A stretch of DNA of 64,000 nt from Sistotremastrum niveocremeum HHB9708 (Eukaryota; Basidiomycota; Agaricomycetes; Sistotremastrales; Sistotremastraceae), in the NCBI GenBank assembly GCA_001630475.1, contig KV419430.1, positions 213,031 to 277,030 of the forward strand. Direction: 5' to 3'. The position numbers and the translations under genes were made by a program. This document shows, one piece after another, positions 10,054 to 49,805 of the stretch; position 1 is the first letter of the stretch; each line of letters starts with the position of its first letter. Below the pieces are notes generated by a model. That model searched no databases, was not told the origin of the DNA, and saw only the letters and a program-made list of their open reading frames with translations.

Positions 10054-12081
10054 TCAAACGCTTCCTGAGGCTAGTTGTGGAATATAACTGTATAATTATT
10101 AGTCAGCGAAGAGATGTCTAGTTAGCAGAAAGGCACGCACGTAAGGTACTGAGGAGGGTGATGATATTCATCAGGTGCTTTGATGATGAGTTCATAGCGT
10201 TGCTCCGGAGAAAGTCCTTGAAGCCAGATTGGATCGTAATAATTCTCAGGCAGACCGGACACTGGGATAGCTTGGGAAAGACGATCGCCCTGGACCCTGA
10301 GGCGGTATTCGCTCCCTTGCCCAGTACCTCCATTATGAGAACTAGTTTGGTGACGCTCATAATGAAGGGAGTCGAGCATGCGAAGAACATTTGTGATCCA
10401 GGTCGGGCGATCGATGCGGAGCCGGATGCGATACGTTCGATGATGAGTCGCGGTGGAGTATCGTTTGGGAGGACCGTCAGACTCGTCGCTGCTCATTCCA
10501 TGGGTCCCGAGCCGACCAAGGACTTTGATTACGGGAGCGAGCCCGTTAGAAGTCTTCGCGACGTGCATACGCTTCCAGTAGAGCTAGATGAGATCATTAA
10601 GAAGATGCGGACTCCGGGAGAGAAGGAAGAGTTACCGAGATCCTGCGGGTATTAGCGCGCGCTTTGGATTGAAGCTCTGCCTTCTGAGCGTCGCTCAGTC
10701 CTTTCTTCCATTGCCGGTATGCTTTGCGACGACCTTTAAAGTGCTCCTTGACGCGTTTGCGCACCATACGCAGGTCGTAGTTATTTGCCGGAAATTGGTC
10801 CACCAAGGCTTGAGCGCAAATATTAATGGCAAGTTCATTCCAACGATCCCGGGGGACGCGGGAGTAAGCGAAGAAGAACTCTTCTCTCGTGGGTCCTCGG
10901 TGCTTGTGTTCGTCGAATTGAGTAAGGGTGGAGTCGGAGGGCATGGGATAATAGTAGGAGTTGCCGCCGTTCTCCGTCTCATCGGGGCGATGCTCTAAGG
11001 CGGCTACGAAAGTCCGAATGCGTTTCTATGAGTCGGTGAGTGATGGATATCGGAATAGTCATAAGTCGTACCAGTAACTCTAAGGTCTGACCACTTTTGT
11101 GGTTCGGACCAAGCTTAATGGGTCGTTCTGGCCCATCGTCGTCTTCGTCGTGTATGTAATTGGACCGGCGCTTAATCTCATCCTGGAGTTTGTTGCCTAG
11201 ACTCACGAGCTTCACGTTGGTGTCGCTGAGGGTTTTCGTGTTGCGTTTGATCGTATGATTGGTTCGTCGAGAAGACTTGACCAGTTCCAAAAGAAGAGTC
11301 TTAGTGTCAGCATGTGCCTGAGATAGTTCAGACATCTGAAAGGCTATTGAAGGGATGGAACATACGAGATTCTCGAGATCGCTTTCGGATTCAGACCCGG
11401 AGTCATCATCAGAATTTTCCGGAATCCCAGCGCCCTCACGAGCCTTGCCCTTCTGGGTTCTGGCTCCTGGGTTCTCTTCGCCGTCATCCATACGATCGGC
11501 ATCAGCAGGATCCCTGACATCGGGATTTCTGGCGTTGGAAGTGCTTTGGCCATCGCGAGAAGGGGCGATAGCAGGGTCAGGATGATTCGCTGATGGTGGA
11601 GGGACCCAATTTGGCGAGACGAGGTTCATCGGCTCTTTGGGATGATTGAGATCCTCCTGCAATCCTGGCATGTCCTGTAGTATCTTCGGTGACTGAAGCG
11701 TGTGTACATCGCAATTCAAACTCACAACATCACGCTCTGAAATCTGTGGATGGAAATAATGAATATGTGTCGTACCGATATAACACGGAATCACTAACCG
11801 GGATATTGGTAGCATGGCCGGAACGTAAGGCAGGTTGGGGTACGCTGATGGTGGGATTCAAGACTATGACACGGTAAGTAATAGATAGCATGATGGAGTC
11901 GCAGAGATCGCTCACCCGCTGGAGCTTCGGCCGCAGGTTGATGCTGTAGTGCTACCAAGGGAGGTGACGGCGCATCCGCTATCGGCTGAGTATATCCATA
12001 TGGATGGAATTGTCGTTCTGTACGCCGAGCTCTACGGTCGGCGAGAAAGTGAGAACGCGGGGGCTGTCGTGGGGCAGCCAT
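10054..12081 (-). CDS. 578-aa hypothetical protein, seven exons
   Basis: Exons on the minus strand: 12081-11916, 11863-11799, 11743-11726, 11692-11072, 11025-10636, 10583-10141 and 10087-10054. All introns are GT-AG, 33-64 nt, and all phases agree. The N-terminal 200 residues are disordered (Pro-rich, then an acidic Ser/Asp/Glu tract after GAGIPENSDDD). A helical, probably coiled-coil stretch follows (RRTNHTIKRNTKTLSDTN), then a basic helical block (VRKRVKEHFKGRRKAYRQWK), and a C-terminal region containing SGLPENYYDPIWL. From memory, similar architectures occur as multi-copy families in Agaricomycetes, but I know no function. The basic block suggests nucleic-acid binding; that is inference. 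A 30-nt in-frame stretch at about 11369-11340 could be a mini-intron. Confidence 0.7.
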
Positions 12082-21041: not shown

Positions 21042-24000
21042 ATGGGCACCTCTCTCTGCACCTGTAGTATCTGCGCTACTGGGACAGTCATTGACCCAGC
21101 GACGGGTTTACTCGTCTCCGGAGCCTTGGTCTCAGCGAATATCAAGAAGGCTCATCGTGAAGCCGATTCTACAACATCTCCGAGCCCCCCGCTGCTTGAG
21201 AAAAATAAAGCTGAGCTTCGGCATCTCTCCACCCCGCCACCACGCATTCGGAACCCTGTCGGAACTCCGGAACCACCTCTAAGCCCTGCTACAGGTGACC
21301 CGTCTTTCATCTAACGAATCAGTTCGTCCACTGAACCATTGATAGATCTCAAATCCCCGACCAGATTGAAGCGCGATGCAAATGCCAGGGTTGATCCTCC
21401 CTCGGTAATCTTGGCTCGCGAGATTGAAAGCCTTATCACCTCTTTCCAATCACCGGCGCATCTCATATTCTCGAAAACACCCCAGAGCGACGTTGAATAC
21501 TCTCCTTCGAGCCTACACGGCCGAGTCAATCATGGACCCTGTTGTCTCAATCCAACAGCACCGGAGAACGCAGCTCTCCTCAATCTGGAATCCGCACTCT
21601 TCCGGATTCGTGGACAAGCAGAAAGTCTGGGTGTCAGAGCTTCGGCAACGAAGAAAACTCCCTATAGCGCAATCAAAAGTTGCGTAGACGGCCACCTTAA
21701 GCAAATCGATAAGCTCAAACGTCGGGAATGGAAACGGCAGCGGCGGTCCTTGCCAGACCCTGCCATTACTGATAATGCCAACTCTTTGCGTAAGCGATTT
21801 CGTTCAGACCTCTCTCAGTTGTTGATTATGTTGCAGGACGATATCTTGACAATGTCAATAGTGACTATGGTCTCCCTCTCCTTCCACTGGTGTGCGTTGT
21901 ATTTCTGGCAGCGCTACACATACTTTGTAGCCTTTCGCTCAGAGATATGGGTTTTATCCAATCTTTGTTCGAATGGATCATTGCGATACTCCTCCCTCAC
22001 CTCAGTACAACCCCCACCTCCTGGATCCATTGGCTACGAAGTCCTGCCCCCAATCCTCGCAAGATATACCGTCTACTCGATTTGCTCCCGGAAACCCGTA
22101 CATACATCTGTTGCCCAAAATGTTTTGCCTGCTACCCAGAAGATACGTCTGAGCGATGCTGTACCTTCAGAACGGCTCGCCATTCACCCTCCTGCGGTAC
22201 CCCCCTATTCAAGACGAAGCATCCTGACCGTCCTATTCGCAAATATGTGCATCAAGACCTGTCTCATTGGCTGGCACGGCTGCTCGCACGTCCAGATATG
22301 GAAGCGATCATGGACGCACGAACCCGTCGTGTCATGGAGGATCGTCCGACCGAGATGCAGGATATTTGGGATGGAGACGTCTTTCGTAACTTCAAGGACG
22401 ATGATGGCTCTCTCTTCTTCGTCGAGGGCAACGAGGGACGATATGCGTTCAGTTTGAACGTGGACGGGTTCAATCCAGAGGGCAATCGTCACGGAGGCCG
22501 CTCTGCCTCCGTCGAAGCCATATATATGGTCTGCCCCAATCTTCCCCCCTCCCTCCGCTACAAAGTGGAAAACGTATATGTCGCTGGTTTAGTTCCCGGT
22601 CCAAACAAACCGTCCAAGGCTCAGATAAATCGCATTCTCAAGCATCTGGTAGACGATCTCGAAGTCCTCTGGAAAGAGGGAGTTACCATTCCTACACCGA
22701 AATCACCTCATGGCAGAAAAATTCGAGCAGCACTCGTCCCTCTCGTGTGCGATCTCCCCGCTTCCAATGATGTGGCCGGCTTTCGGAATCATAATGCGAC
22801 TATGGCATGCCCCTATTGCTGGGTCACGAAACACGAACTCGGAGAACCGGATCTCACCTTTCCCCCGAGGCTCTCATCTGTTCATCGAGAATGCGCAGAA
22901 GAATGGAAGAATGCCGAAACAGAATCTGAAATGGATAGGCTCGAGCAGGAGAAGGGTGCGCGATGGTCCGAGCTACTTCGGCTCCGATACTGGAATCCTA
23001 TCCAGTTCAAAGTCATAGACTCCATGCATATGATCAGTGCTTTGTACGAGAGACACTGTCGTCATGTTCTTGGAATGAGCGCAACAGCAGCCGATGGCGA
23101 TGGGAACACCGAGAAACCGCCAAAGGTTCGGGATCCTAAAAAGCGACAAGAATATGCCGAACTCATCGCGAAGAAGAAATCCTCTGTTCTCATTCGGCTA
23201 CCCCTCAGCGTTCTACGGAGTCTCTGTGCGGAACGAGGTTTGCCGTGGGGCGGAAGAGCAAGAGCTCCCTTTGTGACATCGTTATTGGTCTGGGTTAGTT
23301 TAGCCGTTATTCAGATTCTGTCTAGTCACTAATAATATTCCTTTCTTTCTCAGTCCGATGCCAATAATGGCACAGACTTGCGCCTAAGTAAAGCTGACAA
23401 CGCTTTCTCAAGAAAAGTGCTCCGAGCACGCTGGGGTTTGGATTGGCCACTTGACGAGGGTTTCGACCGACAGAAATACTTGATGACGTTCCACCGCGAT
23501 GTTCTGAAGGCTCTCTGTGAAGAAGTTAAAGTGAAGGTGCCGGCCAAGGCCACTAAGACAGTCCTGACTGCAGCCTTGGTGGATTATGTAAGCACTCCAA
23601 GTAGCCTATGAACGATGTTAGAATGCTGATCAGCCGCGACTGACCTTTAGCATGCCAGGCAGCCGCCTCAGAATACAGAATGGTCCGAAGAGCAAGTTGC
23701 CATGCATCATCCATCTCCGTATCGTCTGCTAAAAAAGCTTGGTTTGGAGCGATGTCGGGCAATCTGCCTGGCCAACAACCTCTCGTCTGAAGGCACGCTC
23801 GACCAGGTTATTAAGAGAATCGAAGAGGAGGTCCGTGTGCTGCTTCTACAATTGACTGCTCCTCGCTCACATTAGCCTAGCGTTACCGACCAACCGAACG
23901 ATCACTCGGCATTGCGGACGATGTCGAGAATACCACGAATGCTCCAAATCCACCATTATCTCCTGAAGATATACTGTGGGAAGATGAACAGCTCCTTTCG

Positions 24001-36151: not shown

Positions 36152-37134
36152 CTAATGCCCATGCTCATGCCCAACATGAATACTCGCATTCCAGACACGA
36201 TCGATTTTACGCGCCATCGCCCAGTCTCGGATGGCATCGAAATTTCGGCACGTGTGGATGCTATCAAAATGCGGAAAGCTGACTCCCCGGCTCTCATCCC
36301 ATTGCCACACATTAGGCGTGATATCGGCGTTGCACAAGATGTTTTCTCGCAGGATGTTCACGCAATGATCGGTATGATCAAAGGGCTCTGTGTCGCTGCC
36401 AATCACTATGCCGGGTGGACCCATTTCTGGGGGACCATATCGCTCCGGCCAGAGGGCTCTACGGACGTAATTCTAAGGAAGAGGGTAAGTCAAAGGCAAA
36501 GGCTGGGGAGACGGGAACGTACGAGACAATGTATTTGGTGGAATACGTCGAGAGAGATTGCATAACGCCCTTCTTTATCGTTCGGAAGCGGTTCTGTACG
36601 GTTGGGAAGGAGCGCAGCTTCCTCTGCCGATATGTATGACAGCCCCACTGGAGGATAAGGGTTTCATGAGCGGGAGAGATGGAAGAGGTAGACGGAGCTC
36701 ACTGTAATAAAGATCATCCCAAGCCTTGTCCGTCTCGTCGGTTGGGGGTCCATGATATATCGTTTTAGTACCGAGCTCGTCAAATACTCGTCGTTCATAT
36801 CGCACCGCGCTTTGAGCCGGAGCTATAGCACTTGATCAGTATAGACTCATGCAGAGCTGACTTGTTATAACTCACAATATAATGGTCCTGAAACGCCCCA
36901 TATCGGATCCATCTGACTGGCAGAGCAGTCGGGAGTGGGCTTGGAGAAGTTGAAATATAGACCGATGACATTCATCACAAACAGGACAGCAAGGATTCCG
37001 AACTCGACGGGTCGTCGTAGAGTGAATTTTGATTGAGACACTTCATCTTCTAGGTCATCCTTCTCCTTCAAGAGATCGTCGCTGCTCCCAGAAGCATGGG
37101 CTTGGGGGAGGAGAGGGCGATAGTCTTTCGACAT
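36152..37134 (-). CDS. UstYa-family (DUF3328) oxidase-like protein
   Basis: Exons 37134-36876, 36822-36703, 36647-36523 and 36472-36152, introns of 50-55 nt, 274 aa. A transmembrane helix at about residues 47-65 (FGILAVLFVMNVIGLYF) follows an acidic N-terminal cytoplasmic part. Both family-defining HxxHC motifs are intact: HQIHC at 163-167 and HTDHC at 201-205. LRENILCNAD, a W block and HTCRNFDAIRDWA follow, the usual C-terminal pattern. UstYa proteins act in fungal secondary metabolism, best known in ribosomal-peptide (dikaritin) cyclisation, and also in other pathways. The gene is complete. No polyketide or peptide synthetase is nearby; two small secreted peptide genes lie 1.8 and 4.7 kb away on the other strand. 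Confidence 0.88.
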
Positions 37135-37861
37135 TGAGAGTCAAGGTCGAGTGATTCCAGAGATTAGAACAGCGAGCGTAGCGTCAAGACCAGATTGATG
37201 CCACTTTGAGATAGGCCGACTGGATCAGAGGGAAACATGGGCCAAGAATGGATGATTTTCCCACTAGTACCGCTCAGTTTCTTGATAGCCCCGCGCTGGA
37301 TCCATCCTATTCCCATTGCATGTGCAGATGATAGTCTACCGCATGGCTCGCCTTGAGAAAAGAAGATTGTCGTCGACTCAGGGGAAGTTTCTCCGCTCTG
37401 GGGAAATTCACGGGCCAGTTCAATCTATGGCCATGAAGTCTCAAGATCGACGGTCTTGGATAGCAAGGGTGAGTTCTGCAATCCAGTTCGAAGAGAGTCA
37501 GCCGATCGCGAAGGTGGTCAAATAATCGCATCAGGAAAAGCAGAGAGCAACTCGATTTCACGTGAATAGCTGCCGCTGTCGTGACACCTGCCACCATGAT
37601 CTTGACTCAATGACTTCATCGCTGCTTTCCTACAAGGGCGGAGACGATCTAGACCATCGAAGCAAAGCAAAGCACAGCATACTCTCTCTCAATGGTAGCC
37701 TTAGACTTGGCTTGCTCCCGTTGTCGCTCCAGATCGTCTCGCCCTCATTCACGAAAATCCGGAGGCGAATTCGTCATTGACGCAGTCCTTCACAATATTC
37801 GAGCGTCACCGAACGTCTTAAGAAACTAGACGAAGGAATCCAGAAGCTACTTATCGATTCA
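37135..37861. other. Promoter side of the UstYa-like gene
   Basis: The sequence next to 37134 is the presumed promoter of the minus-strand UstYa gene. Beyond it only short frames are seen. The duplicated block begins at 37862. Confidence 0.35.
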
Positions 37862-38391
37862 AAGCCGATCTTCTCACCTCACAGACGATCTTCCGCATTA
37901 GACCGAACTGGGCGGATACTTATTCCTATACTCTGGTTCCGCCTCTTCACCGTTTTTACGATCCAGTATGTGAAGCCAGATCCATTTTCGTTTCAACCAT
38001 ATGCTTGACCATCACCTGCAAACGAGGGTTGTCCTGAGTCCTATCTTGACCGAGGTCTGATTCACTCGGGTCGGTCTCGTAACGCTCAACTCTGTGATCG
38101 ATGGATTGGATCACCCTGCTCCAGGATCAAAGACACGCGTTCTATGATCTCTGTGGCAGCTATTGTGTACAGGCTCGAGCGAACGTGCGTCACTGTCAAT
38201 GGACTCGGACTCACCACCATGAGATTGCTTCTCCCAGCAAACGCCTTCTGATGGATCCGTGTCCCCGTATATCCTGATCTGCTCACAGAAACTGCACTGG
38301 AGAATCAGAGAGAGGTACTGGAAACTCCGCCGTCTTTGCGATATCACAAGATGAGCGAAAGCACCATTATTCACTTGACTGTCTACCAAAA

Positions 38392-38595
38392 TTAGGCGAA
38401 AAATGGACTCTGATGACCTTCTCTTGTTATGCAAATACTTCGCCGTCTAAAATCTGTCAAGAGGGAACCTCTGTAATATTTCCCTTGATTATCGCTTCTT
38501 AAACTGATCCAGACACTGCTTTGCAGGCAAGTGCATTGCGAGTCGCCGATCTGGTTCCTGAGTCTAAGATGTCCATTCCACGCCCATGAGAACAC
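38392..38595 (-). pseudogene. Decayed copy of the minus-strand gene at 41576
   Basis: The frame aligns with the start of the copy-B gene (FSWAW against FTWTW, SVWIS against KVWIS), but the ATG of copy B corresponds to GTG here. A stop appears earlier (38392), and the downstream half carries indels. Both faults suggest the copy is no longer translated as in copy B. Function unknown. Confidence 0.5.
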
Positions 38596-38930
38596 CCCAC
38601 GGACTACAATACAATCTCACCAAGAAGCGAGTCAACCATACGAAATGGCGTTAAAGAGGTAGCTTTGCGATGCAGATCGATATCCTACCGAACCAAATGT
38701 ATGCTATCTCGCCCTAAGACCACTGGGATGGGGGTCTCGAGCGTGAAATTGACTGTATGGGGCACCGATGGTACACGACTGGCCCTAGCTGCGACGAGAG
38801 TCCAATGATACCTTCACGCGCTGCCACGGACAGGTTACAGTATGGCTCAAAATCATCCCGAAGCATGGGTTATAAGAACAGACGCGAAGGTCGGAAGACA
38901 GCACGATAGTCACCCACTATTTGCAACATC

Positions 38931-39275
38931 ATGTACTCTGTTAAATCCATCGCTCTTATGCTGATCGCTTGCGTTGCAGTGGCCAGTGCTAACCCCGTAC
39001 GTTATTCAATTCTGTTTACAAGTTTCGTCTACTATGTGACGTCAATGTTAATGTCCATTCCTTTTTCCTCAGATGCCTACAAATGGTGTCGATGCGGAAG
39101 CCAATGCTTGCTACAAACCGCGTATCGGGGTAGGAAAAGTCTAGAATTTCAATTCACGATACTGAAGATCTTCAAACCCAGGTCCGCGATCCCAGCGCCA
39201 ACCCCGAGCCCTGCGTGAGTCCTCACATTTAACTCCTTGATCTTAGCCATAGTAATTGATTTGGTCGCGCAGTAA
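38931..39275 (+). CDS. Small secreted peptide precursor, copy A
   Basis: Exons 38931-38996, 39073-39129 and 39182-39214, plus a stop codon alone in the last exon (39273-39275); 52 aa. A signal peptide is clear: MYSVKSIALMLIACVAVASA. The predicted mature part contains NACYKPRIG and ends ANPEPC. Compared with copy B, the second donor has moved 6 nt downstream because the original GTAAGC changed, adding two residues, and the dibasic KR has become VR. If Kex2 cleavage matters, this copy would not be processed. Intron positions otherwise match copy B, including the one directly before the stop. Confidence 0.62.
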
Positions 39276-39799
39276 ACTACAATCTTCTGAATCATCGTCT
39301 TCTGGGTCTAAGAGATTATCATTGTCAGTTTGATAGACTTTCCACGCTTGTCAGACTACGCGTGGCTTTGAGCCTCGAATTCGAAGTAAATATAAGGAAT
39401 TTTCATGAACTATGATGCGGTCATGGCGACCCAGAGCTTCACACTGCGGGCAAGGTGCACTTTTCTGTGTAGGTAAAACTTGCTCGGAGGCCCCTAATGG
39501 AGGAATTCCGACGATTTATAGGTCGTATAAACCGGTTAAGAAGCGGTTTATACGGCGAGTAAAGTGCCATGGGTCCGCAGTGTCAGCATTCATAATGAGC
39601 CACCTTGCAGGCTTGCAAGTCGCGACCCAAATATGGTACGCGGGATGGAAATCAGCGTCCCTATGACACAAGCTCTAACACAACCTCAAGACAGCTTGAT
39701 CACTTCCTTTTCAGATGGTCCTGATGTGGGAGTATATACTAACACAGCGGGGGAAAAAAATTCGAGAAATCGGATAGAAATGAGTACTAGACCTCGGAC
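39276..39799. other. Intergenic; contains a 29-bp perfect hairpin
   Basis: At 39525-39553 GTATAAACCG and CGGTTTATAC form a perfect 10-bp stem with a 9-nt loop. No Pol III or protein-coding context is visible. The remaining short frames are unsupported. Confidence 0.4.
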
Positions 39800-40345
39800 A
39801 TTTACTCAAGGGTAATTTACTCTCGAGTAAATGACCGGTTATTTACTGGTAAATAACATGTAAATTACTGGGATGGGTTTGGGATGGTGTAAATATCTGT
39901 CAATATCTTCAATTCTCTCGCGATGACGCAGAAGGATGGGCAGAATATCCACCAGAGTCAGCCAGGAAGCCACAAGTCGACGATGGGAGGGTGGTCGGGG
40001 ATAATGTTCTTACCTCCGTCATGACCCTATTTGGCTTCACGGCGGCTCCGAAATCAAAGCCGAAGTGCCCGAAACTCCGCCAACAACGTTTGAAATCGGA
40101 CGATAGCAGACGTTTCACCTTCACCTGAAGACAGTGAAAAATGGAGGAGCTCTACATACGCGTATGACACTCATTAGAGACCAGTAATCGGGTACCTGGG
40201 TTATATATCCGGTTGTAGGTAATTGACCTAGTTATTTACCGGTAAATTACACAGTTATTTACTCAAAAATCGTCTGGAGCGCCGGGGCTACGCCCCGGAC
40301 CCCTTACAGTAAATTACTGGTAAATTACCATGTAAATATCCCTCT
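39800..40345. repeat. Palindrome-rich repeat cluster (TTTACTGGTAAA family)
   Basis: Two clusters about 400 bp apart (39805-39875 and 40219-40345) are built from variants of GTAATTTACTGGTAAATTAC, in both orientations, with TTACTCGAGTAA-like palindromes. A GC-rich inverted repeat (CCGGGGCTACGCCCCGG, about 40282-40298) lies in the right cluster. This looks like the ends of a small non-autonomous element or a nested hairpin element. It separates the two duplicated blocks. No coding capacity. Confidence 0.6.
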
Positions 40346-40920
40346 CCCAGCGCACCTGTAATTAACTTATGGTCAATATCTCGTCGGAGGTAAATGTCCG
40401 AACTCTAATGAGTACGACGAGCTTCTCTACAATAAATTCAGGTTTTCCTGGAAACTTGGACATGGTCTCAGCATAATGAGCATATCCCCGGAATGGTCGT
40501 TGTTCTGAGCATTTTTCCCCCTCAATGAGTACTACTGTATCTCATTTCGAGAACTGGGGGCGAAGCAACACGTTCTAGATCTCAAGACCTTCCCACGATT
40601 CGCTTTTGGGAATTTTGCACTGAGTCCGCTGACTAAGCGTGTCGACTCAGTCGTCGACGATGCTAACACAAATGCCTTTTTGCGAGGGACGCAATCACTC
40701 GAATGTTCGACCTTCGCTGAATGATTCGGATAACTGGAGCAAACGGAAATACTATACTAGTAGGTGATCTGCAGATTCTGCACGTACAGTATCTATTTTA
40801 AGCCGATCTTCTCACCTCACCGCACGTCGCGCATGCTCAACTGAATTTGACGGGAGCTTACTCTTAATCTCTGGTTCCACCTGCTATTTCCATCGTCTAT
40901 ACTGCTCGGTACTACGTGGG

Positions 40921-41576
40921 CTAAACCCTCTTGCTCCTGCCATAGGCTATCATATGATATGACCTGCATGCGAGGCTTACTCGGGTCTTATCTTCAATTT
41001 GTACGGACACTTGATCTCTTTTTAAATGGCTTTGAATTGCATCAACGCTGTTCATGATCAAATCCATGTGTATAAACACTGGGCAGATGCCTTCCTCCGT
41101 CTGGAAACCTGAGGATCCTTGCCCCACCACCAACATGTCCTGGGCATTACGTCCTGCTAAAGAGAAAACGCTGTCATATGCATTTCTGTCCCCATGCGGC
41201 CTAATCCGTTGAAAGGACATGCATCGGATGGTCAGGAGACAAGGCGGCTGGAAACTTCATTTTTTTCTCGGAATTAGTGGATGGGCACCGCTACATTCGT
41301 GGATACGGCGAGCTGGGGACCCTGGAACACCTTCTCGGAAAATCTTGATTACCTGTCATCGCGGATGCTATCCTCGCAGCGGTATATAACGTGGTGGATA
41401 ATCTCCTCCAGTTGAGGCACACTTGGCCGCTCAGGATTACGGGCAGATTCTGTCTCATTATCGTCTTTTGGACTGATCCAAACCTTGCTTCTTCCACGAA
41501 TGCGGAAACATAGCGTTTGAGAGCTGCCGATAAACCCCTGGATATGAAGATCTTCTTTCCACGTCCATGTGAACAT
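40921..41576 (-). CDS. Hypothetical protein divergent from peptide gene, copy B
   Basis: The first exon runs from ATG at 41576 to a donor (AG|GTAATC) at about 41350 and encodes MFTWTWKEDLHIQGF..., with KVWISPKDDNE and LEEIIHHVIYRCED. Further minus-strand coding appears at 41220-40921 (QRIRPHGDRNAYDS, EDMLVV-like stretches and a helical NSVDAIQSHLKRDQVS), but I could not fix the acceptor. An overlapping frame begins at 41584. No signal peptide, membrane helix or domain is recognised. Its divergent position next to the peptide gene, and the duplication of the pair as a unit, suggest a shared role; that is inference. Confidence 0.4.
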
Positions 41577-41873
41577 GCTACCATCTTCTATTTTATCTCA
41601 CTACAAGCGAGATAACAATACGAATGGGCGTTAAAGAGCTGATACTTGTGCGCAAACTGGGATACTATTGGACTTTATCTCGCCTTATAACCTCTGCTAT
41701 GCGGGTCTCGAGCTGGAAACCAACCGCATGGGGCACCGATCGGTACACGAGCAGCATATCTTGTGAAAAGATTCCGTCTGTTAGGGCCCAAGCTCAATCC
41801 AACTCGCGGACTATAAGTAGAGGTGCAAAGATCACAAGACATCACGATAGTAATCCGCCAATTACATCCTACC

Positions 41874-42197
41874 ATGTTCTCCGTCAAATCCATCGCTCTT
41901 CTCCTGCTCGCCTGCGTCGCAGTGGCCAGTGCTACACCTGTGAGCAGTCCCATTCCTATTGTAAATTCCCTTATGTTAACGCTTGCGCCTTTCCCTTAGG
42001 TCGCTACCAACGTTGTCGATGAGGAAGTCGGTGCTTGCTATGTGCCCCATGTAAGCATGGGTAGAACGCTCGGGTCGATTTTTAACGCTGAACACCTTTG
42101 TATTCAGAAACGCGACGCTAACGCCAACCCCGTGCCCTGCGTGAGTTCCCTTGCTCCGATATCATTCACGTTCCCAACTGATATGCTTCTGCAGTGA
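41874..42197 (+). CDS. Small secreted peptide precursor with KR site, copy B
   Basis: Exons 41874-41939, 42000-42050, 42108-42140 and the stop alone at 42195-42197; 50 aa. The signal peptide MFSVKSIALLLLACVAVASA is followed by a 19-residue stretch with an acidic part (VVDEEVG) and ACYVPH, then a dibasic KR at 40-41, then a 9-residue C-terminus DANANPVPC. KR is a classical Kex2 cleavage site. There are only two Cys in the secreted part, at ACY and the very last residue, so one disulfide or a modified peptide is possible. There is no CaaX box, so it is not a lipopeptide mating pheromone. Each exon maps to a precursor segment: signal, first segment, KR plus tail, stop. All four introns-to-exon phases are 0. 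Family not recognised. Confidence 0.7.
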
Positions 42198-43193
42198 GCC
42201 ACTCCTCTTCGGGTTGGTGCCTTCTGGGTTTGAAGAGGATATCATTGCTTGTATGATAGACTTTGCGCGCATGTCGAGCTATATGTAGCCTCAAATCCGG
42301 AAGTATATATAGATAAGAAACTTTGATATCAAGATCATGGAACATTGGGACCTTCAGTACCGTCAGAGCCTGAGGATGCTCAGCCTATTAGTCTCGGTGG
42401 TAATCTGGCCTCAAAGGGCTTTCTTATGTCGTCTTCAGCTTCGGAAACAATCAAATGCTGATGTGATGCCAGTGGGCCCAGCTACCACGTCAACCTCTCT
42501 GTCATCCAGCCATATGGCAATCCAGACTCATATTTGTGGGACTGGCGGTGTCGACCAGTTATGACGAGACGCAGCCAGATGCGCATCTTGATTGAAGATT
42601 GAAGAGGATCCGAGAGGGCAGCGCGCGTCCAATCGTTATCGTTCCCAGAAATCGATAGGCTGAGAATAGACCTGGCCCTTTGTTGACCGCCGACAAGTCT
42701 GAACGAGCTCCAGATATCTGAATCGTTGCCTTCGACGCTGAGTCCGGAGCGCCGAGTCTTCCGTCAGGTAAACTCTCATAGACCCTTCATGCAGTTTTGA
42801 TGATCGATGCGTGCCTAGGAATGTTGCTTCTTGATCGACTAGCAAGACGACGCCGGGAGATATTCTGTATTGAAGATGACGGTCACAATTTAGGTCCGTT
42901 GAGATGATAAGCTGATATCCATGAACAGTCGTCGGACGGTGTTTTGAAATATCTGGACGATCTCTATAGTCTCGACGAGTCCCGCCCAAGAGATGCGAAA
43001 GAGGGACAAAAAGGGTTAGGGTCAGGCACCGATTGCAAGAGACTCGCGGCTGTGTTCCAAAAATCCAACGTGACCCACGGAATCTTCCCCAGACCGAGAC
43101 TCTCTGCAGCCATGGCCAGATTATCGACGTCGACATCGCTTCAACATAAAAGCTCAATGGCTATCGCAAGCCAATTCTCATTAGGCTTCCAGC
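42198..43193. other. Intergenic; no gene supported
   Basis: A minus-strand frame at 42636-43157 (173 codons) is long but lacks domains, crosses the promoter of the gene at 43194 and has no splice support. The block duplication ends near 42200-42300. Confidence 0.35.
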
Positions 43194-47246: not shown

Positions 47247-49805
47247 ATGATCATCAGAATATTCTCGTCATGGCTACCCCTTCTCCCCATCCTCTTCTCT
47301 CCTATTCTTGCCCAAGCTCCTGGATCAATAACGGTCGTTGGAGACACTAAAGTCAGCGCGATGATGGTGAGTCGCTGTTCCAATTTTTACACCACTCAAG
47401 TGCTAATGGAGAACGAATGGCACAGATGTTATTAGGGAACGACGAAAAAGTCTACATTCTTGATAAAGTGGAAGGAAACGCTGCTCAGATAAATGGACAT
47501 TCAGCATATGCGGCCGAATGGTGCGTCCTCGATTTTCTCTCTATCATCGCGTTCGCTACTTATTATCGTGTTCAATAGGGATATCGCGAGCTCACAAGCG
47601 ACGTTGATGGATATCGTTACGAACCCCTTCTGTGCATCTGGCATGCATCTTCCCAATGGATCCTTTGCAACCTTTGGTGGAAATGGAGCCATCGGACGAG
47701 GTGGCAACATCGGCAACGTCGTAAACCAGACGGCAGGAAACGGCGAATATGATACGTTCTACCAGGACTACGACGGTTCACGAGCTATCCGTATCCTCAA
47801 CCCATGCACGACAACTGGTGGATGTCAGTGGTTCGACAATACGTCACAGTTACAGATGGCTAGACAGCGATGGTATTCCGGAGCAGAGGCATTGGCGGAT
47901 GGAAGTGTTGTACTCGTCGGTGGATTCGTGAACGGTGGATACATCAACAGAAACAGTGACAATTCGGATCCTACATTTGAAGGCGGCGCTGCGGAACCTA
48001 CGTTCGAATTCTATCCGAGTAGAGGTGGTAATCCCGAGTTGATGGCTTTCATGACCCTAACAAGCGGTCTCAACGCCTATTCCCATACGTATCTCATGCC
48101 CTCGGGCAAGATGTTCGTTCAAGCGAATTGGTCAACCAGTACGTCCCCTTTTATCTGAAATCTTCCAGAGCACAACTGAGCGATTGTGCTAGTTATGTGG
48201 GACTACAACGCCAACATCGAGACCCCTCTTCCTGACATGCCCGGCCACGTCGTACGAGTCTACCCTGCCTCAGGCGCAGTAGCCATGCTCCCTTTAACAC
48301 CTGCGAACAACTACACCCCGACAATTCTCTTCTGCGGCGGTTCCGATATGTCGCCTGACGATTTCGGTAACTACTCTAACCCCTTCATCAACACTTGGGA
48401 TTATCCTGCCTCGCAAGATTGTCAACGTATCACTCCAGAGCCTACAGATGGATCAGCGCCCGCTTATGTCCAAGACGACGACATGCTCGAAGGTCGAACC
48501 ATGGGTCAATTCATCACCCTTCCCGACGGCACCCTTCTTATCATCAACGGAGGCCTGAATGGCACTGCTGGTTATGCTACTAACACGGGTGAAACTCTTA
48601 CTTATGGCGAAATGCCATTTGGAATGAGTTTGGCGTCGGGACCTGTTTTGACGCCTGCGATCTACAACCCCAATGCGGCAGCTGGATCGAGATGGAGTCG
48701 TAGTGGTCTTCAATCTTCTCAAATTCCTCGACTCTATCATTCCTCCGCCATCCTCCTCCCAGATGCTAGCGTCCTCGTCGCAGGCTCGAATCCCAATGTA
48801 GACGTCAACCTGACCACGACGTTCAGTACGGAATATCGTGCGGAACGATTCTATCCTTCATATTTCGCTGCGTCGACGAGACCTAGTTTCTCCGGTGCTC
48901 CTACGTCGTTGACATACGGTGGAAACCCTTTCGACCTCACCATCCAACCTTCATCATATAGCGGCCTCGCGAACGACGCTGCTGGAAACACGACAGTAGT
49001 GCTCATCCGACCCGGCTTCACGACACACGCCATGAACATGGGTCAACGCTACCTCCAACTCAACAACACATTCACAGTCGCAGATAACGGCACCATCACA
49101 CTCCACGTCTCACAAGTCCCTCCGAATGCCAACCTGTTGACGCCAGGCCCGGTGTTGATGTTCGTTGTGATTGCTGGGATCCCCAGTAACGGTACTATGG
49201 TCATTGTCGGCAGTGGGAACATCGAGACCCAGCCTACTAGTGCCGTCGTTCCTCTTCCTACTTCACAACTTTCGTCTGTCAATACCGCGGGTGGAAACGC
49301 TACTGGTGGCGCAGGTTCATCATCAGATAACAGCACACCTGCTTCTTCGAAATCCGGCCTCAACACTGGTGTACTCATCGGCGGCGTCGTCGGTGCAATT
49401 GCCGTACTCGCAATCATTGGCGCGATCGTTGGAATCTGCATCTCACGAAGACGGAATGCCAATGGTCGTCGAAGCATGGCACCCGATGCGTCGTTCGCTA
49501 CGAAAGTCGCAAATATGGCTCCGACGAGTACGTATGCGCGTGGACGGGCGAGTGGAGGTAGCGATAGTAGCGCGTTTATTCCCCTGAGTCAGTATAATCA
49601 TTCGAGTACTTGGGAGCCGAACGCTGGCGCTATGGAGAGCAGTGCGTCGTTTGCTGGAGGTGCGGGTGGGGAGGCGGAGCCTCGGTACAGTGATTATGAT
49701 CCCTATAGGAGTCCGATGAATGCAGATGGAGGCGGTGGTGGAAGAGGCGACAGTTATTATGCCAGTCCTGGAGGTGGTGGTGGTGGACAAGGGAGGAGAT
49801 ACTAG
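47247..49805 (+). CDS. Copper radical oxidase (glyoxal-oxidase family) with membrane anchor
   Basis: Exons 47247-47366, 47426-47520, 47579-48138 and 48193-49805; 795 aa. The signal peptide ends near ILAQA. Kelch-like beta-propeller sequence of the AA5 family follows, with all five copper/radical residues: Cys90 (FCASGM) and Tyr171 (RWYSGAEAL) for the thioether-linked cofactor, Tyr440-His441 (RLYHSSAILLP) and His537 (TTHAMNMGQRY). The last 250 residues hold a Ser/Thr-rich linker, a transmembrane helix (GVLIGGVVGAIAVLAIIGAI), a basic stop-transfer (SRRRNANGRR) and a Gly/Ser-rich cytoplasmic tail. These enzymes oxidise aldehydes such as glyoxal and supply H2O2 to peroxidases or cell-wall processes. 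The anchored form is likely active at the cell surface. No WSC domain. Confidence 0.94.

Follow-up and report, generated by a model that had tools for sequence, protein, structure and literature searches.

A 64,000-nucleotide window of the Sistotremastrum niveocremeum HHB9708 genome (contig KV419430.1, here C37; window C37:213031-277030) contains a gene of the UstYa (DUF3328) family close to two small genes, A and B, which encode secreted-type peptide precursors. We consider A and B to be probable single-core precursors of ribosomally synthesized and post-translationally modified peptides (RiPPs), which would be secreted and modified at the core Tyr by the neighboring UstYa protein, resembling dikaritins but without core repeats (probability of roughly 0.6). 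This reading is based on the gene anatomy, the coding constraint, the pairing of UstYa and peptide genes at a second locus, and the likeness of the B core to the core of a multi-core precursor, while we infer the enzyme action, the disulfide, the cleavage, and the product from the sequence. All genome searches were run within this one genome (34.7 Mb, 111 contigs).

UstYa gene and peptide precursors in the window

Window positions of the genes and of the elements around them are as follows.

36152..37134, minus strand: UstYa (DUF3328) family gene, 4 exons, 274 aa, two HxxHC motifs, Pfam ID PF11807
38931-38996, 39073-39129, 39182-39214, 39273-39275, plus strand: peptide precursor A of 52 aa, with a stop-only exon 4
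41874-41939, 42000-42050, 42108-42140, 42195-42197, plus strand: peptide precursor B of 50 aa, with a stop-only exon 4
37852..39352, plus strand: tandemly duplicated unit giving A and B, matching 40790-42275 in five pieces of 68-78% identity
39793..40410, no strand assigned: insert separating A and B, a repeat of about 615 bases with two further copies found (C26 and C22, 81-82% identity)

The reading frame of the UstYa gene is intact over its exons (37134-36876, 36822-36703, 36647-36523, and 36472-36152), which are separated by GT..AG introns of 50-55 bases, and the protein matches PF11807 with an E value of 9.2e-52. The genome search places the matches of this gene at C37:249242-249874. The two motifs are HQIHC at residue 163 and HTDHC at residue 201, so the window encodes the two-HxxHC UstYa/DUF3328 protein on which the enzyme-based definition of dikaritins turns. 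The protein also has one hydrophobic stretch, GILAVLFVMNVIGLYF, judged by eye to be membrane-like, and a sequence search for relatives of solved structure found none.

All introns of A and B are in phase 0, and the stop codon forms the whole of exon 4, both features being absent from the initial annotation of this DNA. Exon by exon, precursor A reads MYSVKSIALMLIACVAVASANP / MPTNGVDAEANACYKPRIG / VRDPSANPEPC / stop, and precursor B reads MFSVKSIALLLLACVAVASATP / VATNVVDEEVGACYVPH / KRDANANPVPC / stop, where VATNVVDEEVGACYVPH is the core exon. The mature part of A contains two Cys, one Tyr, and the spacing D-x6-Y, without a dibasic site. The signal peptides of the precursors were judged by a hydrophobicity rule or by eye only.

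Both genes were recovered by a spliced-gene scanner written for this analysis and applied to 329,582 bases of the window and the UstYa loci, some stretches of which overlap. The scanner called nine genes, compared with 0.2 per dinucleotide-shuffled copy (10 shuffles), and a stop-only last exon was found in three of the calls (A, B, and member E of contig C64, described below) and in none from the shuffles. The initial annotation had described an intact UstYa gene with two HxxHC motifs and a membrane-type stretch, as well as two paralogous small secreted-type precursors; the exon model, the Pfam match, the motif positions, and the hydrophobic stretch bear out the former, and the scanner confirms the latter, with the same lengths and the same distances from the UstYa gene (1.8 kb for A and 4.7 kb for B). 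Judged from the matching pieces, which extend as far as 1.1 kb upstream, A and B were born by tandem duplication. The insert between them is transposable-element-like and outside the pathway.

A second set of UstYa and peptide genes

Contig C64 repeats the window arrangement, with a UstYa gene on the minus strand and related peptide genes on the plus strand.

C64:7757-8590, minus strand: UstYa gene, found by the genome search
About 7640-7800 of C64:1-10000, minus strand: site of the truncated C-terminus of this UstYa gene, from comparison within its group of copies
C64:12713, plus strand: member C, found by tblastn, hand-chosen exon model, 4.1 kb from the C64 UstYa gene
C64:13605, plus strand: member E, found by motif scan and short tblastx matches, hand-chosen model, 5.0 kb from the C64 UstYa gene
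C64:16030, plus strand: member D, found by tblastn, hand-chosen exon model, 7.4 kb from the C64 UstYa gene
C64:14365 (4365-4765 of C64:10001-20000), plus strand: precursor F, three D-x6-Y units, one per exon
C64:16836 (6836-7104 of C64:10001-20000), plus strand: precursor G, a paralogue of F, KR lost, degenerate-looking

The whole genome was searched by tblastn with B, D, E, and A as queries (E value up to 10), and all five family members found sit at two loci, A and B in the window and C, D, and E on C64. These counts are lower bounds, and unseen members may exist elsewhere, since tblastn has little power for exons of 20 residues; E as a query recovered nothing but its own gene, and neither B nor D retrieved E, which makes the membership of E the least certain. 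The initial annotation had proposed that the UstYa gene and the peptides belong together, and it had named a peptide family common without UstYa neighbors as the result that would speak against this. The search on this genome found members at no other place, and the recurrence of the pairing at C64 supports the proposal. The zones of 4.5 kb around the 21 UstYa loci make up 0.65% of the genome, and the nearest peptide gene is 1.8 kb from the UstYa gene in the window and 4.1 kb from it on C64. The chance probability of the C64 pairing is therefore about 0.007, a value that counts only C64, the locus independent of the one first noticed.

The C64 set is not a haplotype or assembly duplicate of the window. 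The blastn comparison of the window with C64:1-40000 gives a single match (UstYa, 69% over 206 bases), and tblastx gives the UstYa gene, the peptides, and short scattered matches; since nothing else convincing is common to both over 40 kb, C64 is not an allele of the window.

In the hand-chosen models, C, D, and E follow this layout too: the signal exon comes first, followed by an exon with VD..(x)ACY and by a tail, and the stop codon comes right after the last intron; E has its core and tail within one exon. The C-terminus of E, KRDANAEPVPKPC, is close to KRDANANPVPC of B. All five mature parts have exactly one Tyr, so that a core Tyr is available for oxidation as in dikaritins, and all five have the D-x6-Y spacing. 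Two mature Cys are also found in each of the five under the exon models, which are hand-chosen for C, D, and E. Dibasic sites vary, with KR in B and E (2/5), KK in D, and none in A and C. For C and D, comparing exons 1-2 only, the NG86 method gives a nonsynonymous rate (dN) of 0.110 and a synonymous rate (dS) of 1.069 (ratio 0.10), and the differences by codon position number 6, 3, and 17 over 41 codons. The corresponding dN/dS for A and B is 0.215/0.521 = 0.41 (50 codons, two A codons excluded). By these values, A to D look like constrained coding genes, A and B less clearly than C and D.

Precursor F also has a weak match on contig C13 (E value of 0.005).

Multi-core precursors at other UstYa loci

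UstYa genes are numerous in this genome, with 53 exon matches at the 21 loci, of which 18 were read (11 over about 18-64 kb, C52 over 10 kb, and six over 3.4 kb only). Classical KR-spaced multi-core precursors are found at 4 of these 18 loci and single-core precursors at two, the window and C64. The multi-core precursors are listed below.

C33:325122-327333 (about 1120-3333 of C33:324001-334000), minus strand: KR precursor with thirteen cores, 12 of them exact and one a terminal variant
C6:847.8-849.3 kb (2610-4053 of C6:845201-855200), plus strand: long KR-repeat precursor with units like KRAISPDTEESLGVYSGYGGQA in 66-base tandem arrays
About 800-1080 of C33:237348-240782 (C33:238 kb), plus strand: KR repeats KRAAPTPDVDDSDAYHY and APTPDVDDSDAYHYPNE, adjoining a UstYa gene
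About 5900-6800 of C52:122001-132000 (C52:128 kb), minus strand: Trp-type KR repeats KKRDEESGPDARWTPFIWGS and DEESGPDARWTPFIWGSKKR, amid three UstYa genes

The C33:325 kb precursor is built of KNLLD[SA]EVGNSYPGE exons separated by SxKR[SE]A exons, where every core and every KR linker is its own phase-0 mini-exon, and its repeats look to have grown by exon duplication. Its core aligns without gaps to exon 2 of B (TNVVDEEVGACYVPH, then KR), pairing VATNVVDEEVGACYVPH with KNLLDSEVGNSYPGE, and the score of this alignment is reached by 1 in 20,000 shuffles of B, which is one of eight cores tested. B and the C33 precursor also have a common layout of a signal exon, a core exon of 15-19 aa, a KR exon, and phase-0 introns. 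A, C, and D are tied to B through their own sequence similarity. In a 15-protein UstYa tree, the window gene clusters with both UstYa genes next to the C33:325 kb precursor (support 83/85), and a 23-row tree of the last UstYa exon gives the same grouping (support 86/73); this support is not decisive. The absence of core repeats had been raised in the initial annotation as an objection to a dikaritin-like pathway. A and B indeed have no repeats, but the objection is eased because precursors beside other UstYa genes of the same genome do.

The D-x6-Y spacing is present by reading in A to E, in F, and in the cores of the C33:325 kb and C33:238 kb precursors. As a rule for all precursors of the genome it fails, since C6:848 kb has the D at Y-8 and C52 has Trp. 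The C6 precursor adjoins a UstYa gene at C6:844883-845511, and further UstYa matches lie 2-5 kb from the C33:238 kb repeats. Contig C33 (400 kb) has UstYa matches at five places (91, 109, 170, 234-239, and 331-337 kb), two of them with repeat precursors.

Proposed mechanism

The signal peptide encoded by exon 1 would direct the precursor into the endoplasmic reticulum, and in the secretory lumen the membrane-bound UstYa protein would oxidize or cross-link the core Tyr, which lies in the D-x6-Y spacing of exon 2. A disulfide would form between the Cys next to this Tyr and the Cys of the C-terminal tail, and secretion of the peptide would follow. B and the C64 member E may undergo an additional Kex2 cut at KR, after which the disulfide would hold core and tail together.

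We tentatively suggest that these genes might represent a distinct UstYa RiPP subclass of single-core, two-Cys precursors with exons for signal, core, tail, and stop, whose peptide of about 30 residues would be constrained by a UstYa-installed Tyr modification together with a disulfide. If so, duplication (or loss) of core and KR exons would connect them with the multi-core precursors of this genome, and the single-core precursors, invisible to repeat-based searches, could be the substrates that orphan UstYa genes lack. The loci offer candidate substrates with recognizable marks, namely mini-exons, D-x6-Y, a stop-only last exon, and a Cys pair, and the two paralogous enzyme/substrate sets in one organism make the question testable.

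Alternative explanations

A and B could instead be ordinary two-Cys secreted peptides with a signaling, defense, or effector-like role and one disulfide, which are not UstYa substrates, the neighborhood being a shared secreted-product locus or a coincidence. The Cys pair of all five members (under the exon models) and the KR site of only two would fit such peptides, some chance neighbors are expected given the number of UstYa exon matches and loci, and the frames scanned around the genes hold no other cluster enzyme. We nevertheless find this explanation rather unlikely, as the pairing and its orientation recur at C64, B and a repeat precursor beside another UstYa gene have similar cores, and the single Tyr is kept throughout the family. 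The initial annotation favored short peptides released by Kex2, with B yielding a 19-mer and DANANPVPC as separate products. Its observation of the KR site stands, and because KR precedes DANANPVPC in B and DANAEPVPKPC in E, a KR-tail is common to both loci; A and C, however, lack a dibasic site and D has KK, and the tail Cys found in 5/5 members under the exon models suggests that the tail stays attached. As KR is not conserved, a separate 9-mer is improbable as the product of the family. It seems very improbable that A and B are decaying relics of a multi-core precursor that lost repeats and function. G, without KR, reads as degenerate, the C64 UstYa gene is without its C-terminus, and dN/dS between A and B is 0.41 by NG86 and higher by YN00 (see below), but A and B have undamaged frames and splice sites, which the scanner found unaided, the Tyr is kept in all five members, and the ratio for C and D is low.

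Several observations weigh against A and B being UstYa substrates related to the multi-core precursors. By YN00, the dN/dS of A and B is 0.259/0.370 = 0.70 (50 codons). The C33 core score is reached by 1481, 796, 344, and 8287 of 20,000 shuffles for A, C, D, and E, respectively (the three F units give 3759, 14693, and 1408), and since only the similarity of B to the C33 core is strong, the link between single-core and multi-core precursors runs through B. For C and D the best scanner models choose a different third exon, and for E they leave out the core; C and D have their tail Cys only if an AAG acceptor is used, and E is tied to the family by the motif scan, short tblastx matches, and layout, without a tblastn link to A to D. 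The C64 UstYa gene lacks the C-terminal C[RK]xW/FxxIxxW-type stretch kept by the other 14 copies compared. In raw identity to the window UstYa protein, it reaches 67.5% (117 columns) versus 66.9% (139 columns) for the C33 copy C33_331, and it falls elsewhere in the tree, where a clade of the window and C64 genes is marginally rejected (approximately unbiased test, P = 0.042), a group named only after a first tree had been seen. It is thus unsupported that the UstYa gene and the peptides were simply duplicated together from a single ancestral locus, although this is still conceivable because the window and C64 genes are as close in raw identity as any pair with the window gene. Precursor scans found none at 12 of the 18 loci read (seven over 18-20 kb and five over 3.4 kb); these scans are imperfect, as the KR scan misses intron-split repeats such as the C33:325 kb gene. 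No cluster enzymes were found among the 10 window and 10 C64 open frames scanned, the window frames, from 55 of at least 130 aa listed, showing no methyltransferase, transporter, or peptidase. Tyrosinase has 24 exon matches genome-wide, none of which lies on C37, C64, or C33.

Neighboring genes and other features

The window carries an open frame for a Tnp2-family transposase (21794-23329, plus strand, Pfam ID PF02992), with a weak Plavaka match below the cutoff, and a glyoxal oxidase gene (47493-49802, plus strand, Pfam ID PF07250 and PF09118), which is near the UstYa and peptide genes and probably unrelated. Other scanner calls, at window position 11520 (minus strand), on C36 (L031 7883), and on C7 (L035 1166 and 8914), were set aside by eye as chance or unrelated. 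On C64, an array of 126-base repeats (27-1272 of C64:30001-40000) lies inside an open frame of 764 aa that is TPR-like by eye, near open frames resembling an NB-ARC gene, also named by eye.

Comparison with known systems

The dikaritins ustiloxin, phomopsin, and asperipin-2a (ust-RiPS) are described as having, like the loci here, a signal-peptide precursor beside a two-HxxHC UstYa/DUF3328 gene and a Tyr in the core, and asperipin-2a likewise has a single DUF3328 gene at its locus (PMC7329392, PMC9233826, PMC12048977). UstY enzymes are reported to have a dicopper site with which they form cross-links, one example being the Tyr-O to Phe ether in asperipin-2a (PMC12186524). Dikaritin precursors carry many cores, whereas A and B have one each; in addition, the Kex2 site is present in only some members here, a Cys pair is added, and the core is not YxIx-like. 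Ustiloxins and phomopsins are described to need a tyrosinase (PMC7329392), which is not found near the genes here. Two definitions are reported in PMC12048977, one with DUF3328 as the class-defining enzyme and the other, cited there from Ding et al., with five genes, including a methyltransferase gene as well as transporter or peptidase genes. The window locus would be a dikaritin candidate under the enzyme-based definition, while its precursors, with one core each, fall outside a precursor-based definition that calls for repeated core motifs.

Kex2-processed repeat proteins (KEPs) with DUF3328 neighbors offer a second comparison. Such precursors occur at the four multi-core UstYa loci of this genome, and the core of the C33 KEP matches the B core. 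According to the survey descriptions, KEPs were selected by tandem repeats (PMC7329392) or by at least four fragments after dibasic cleavage (PMC6339444), and A and B do not show tandem repeats separated by Kex2 sites. As both surveys select for repeats, which A to E do not have, precursors of this type would go unlisted in them. A DUF3328 gene is reported among the 15 closest genes for 103 of 1680 Basidiomycota KEPs (6.1%), and for the S-5 type, 8 of 12 are near DUF3328 (PMC7329392). UstYa genes are described as numerous in some mushroom-forming fungi, with 16 in Pleurotus ostreatus (PMC8893723). A possible cause of the small number of KEPs near UstYa genes is that many substrates are single-core and were missed by repeat-based mining.

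A literature search, with most subscription journals outside its reach, found no description of a single-core UstYa precursor. The closest parallel is given by lichen DUF3328 clusters, which also have no repeat precursor and for which a single core peptide is among the possibilities raised by the authors (PMC12048977). No precursor is reported for them in that paper, whereas in S. niveocremeum, candidate single-core precursors recur at two loci.

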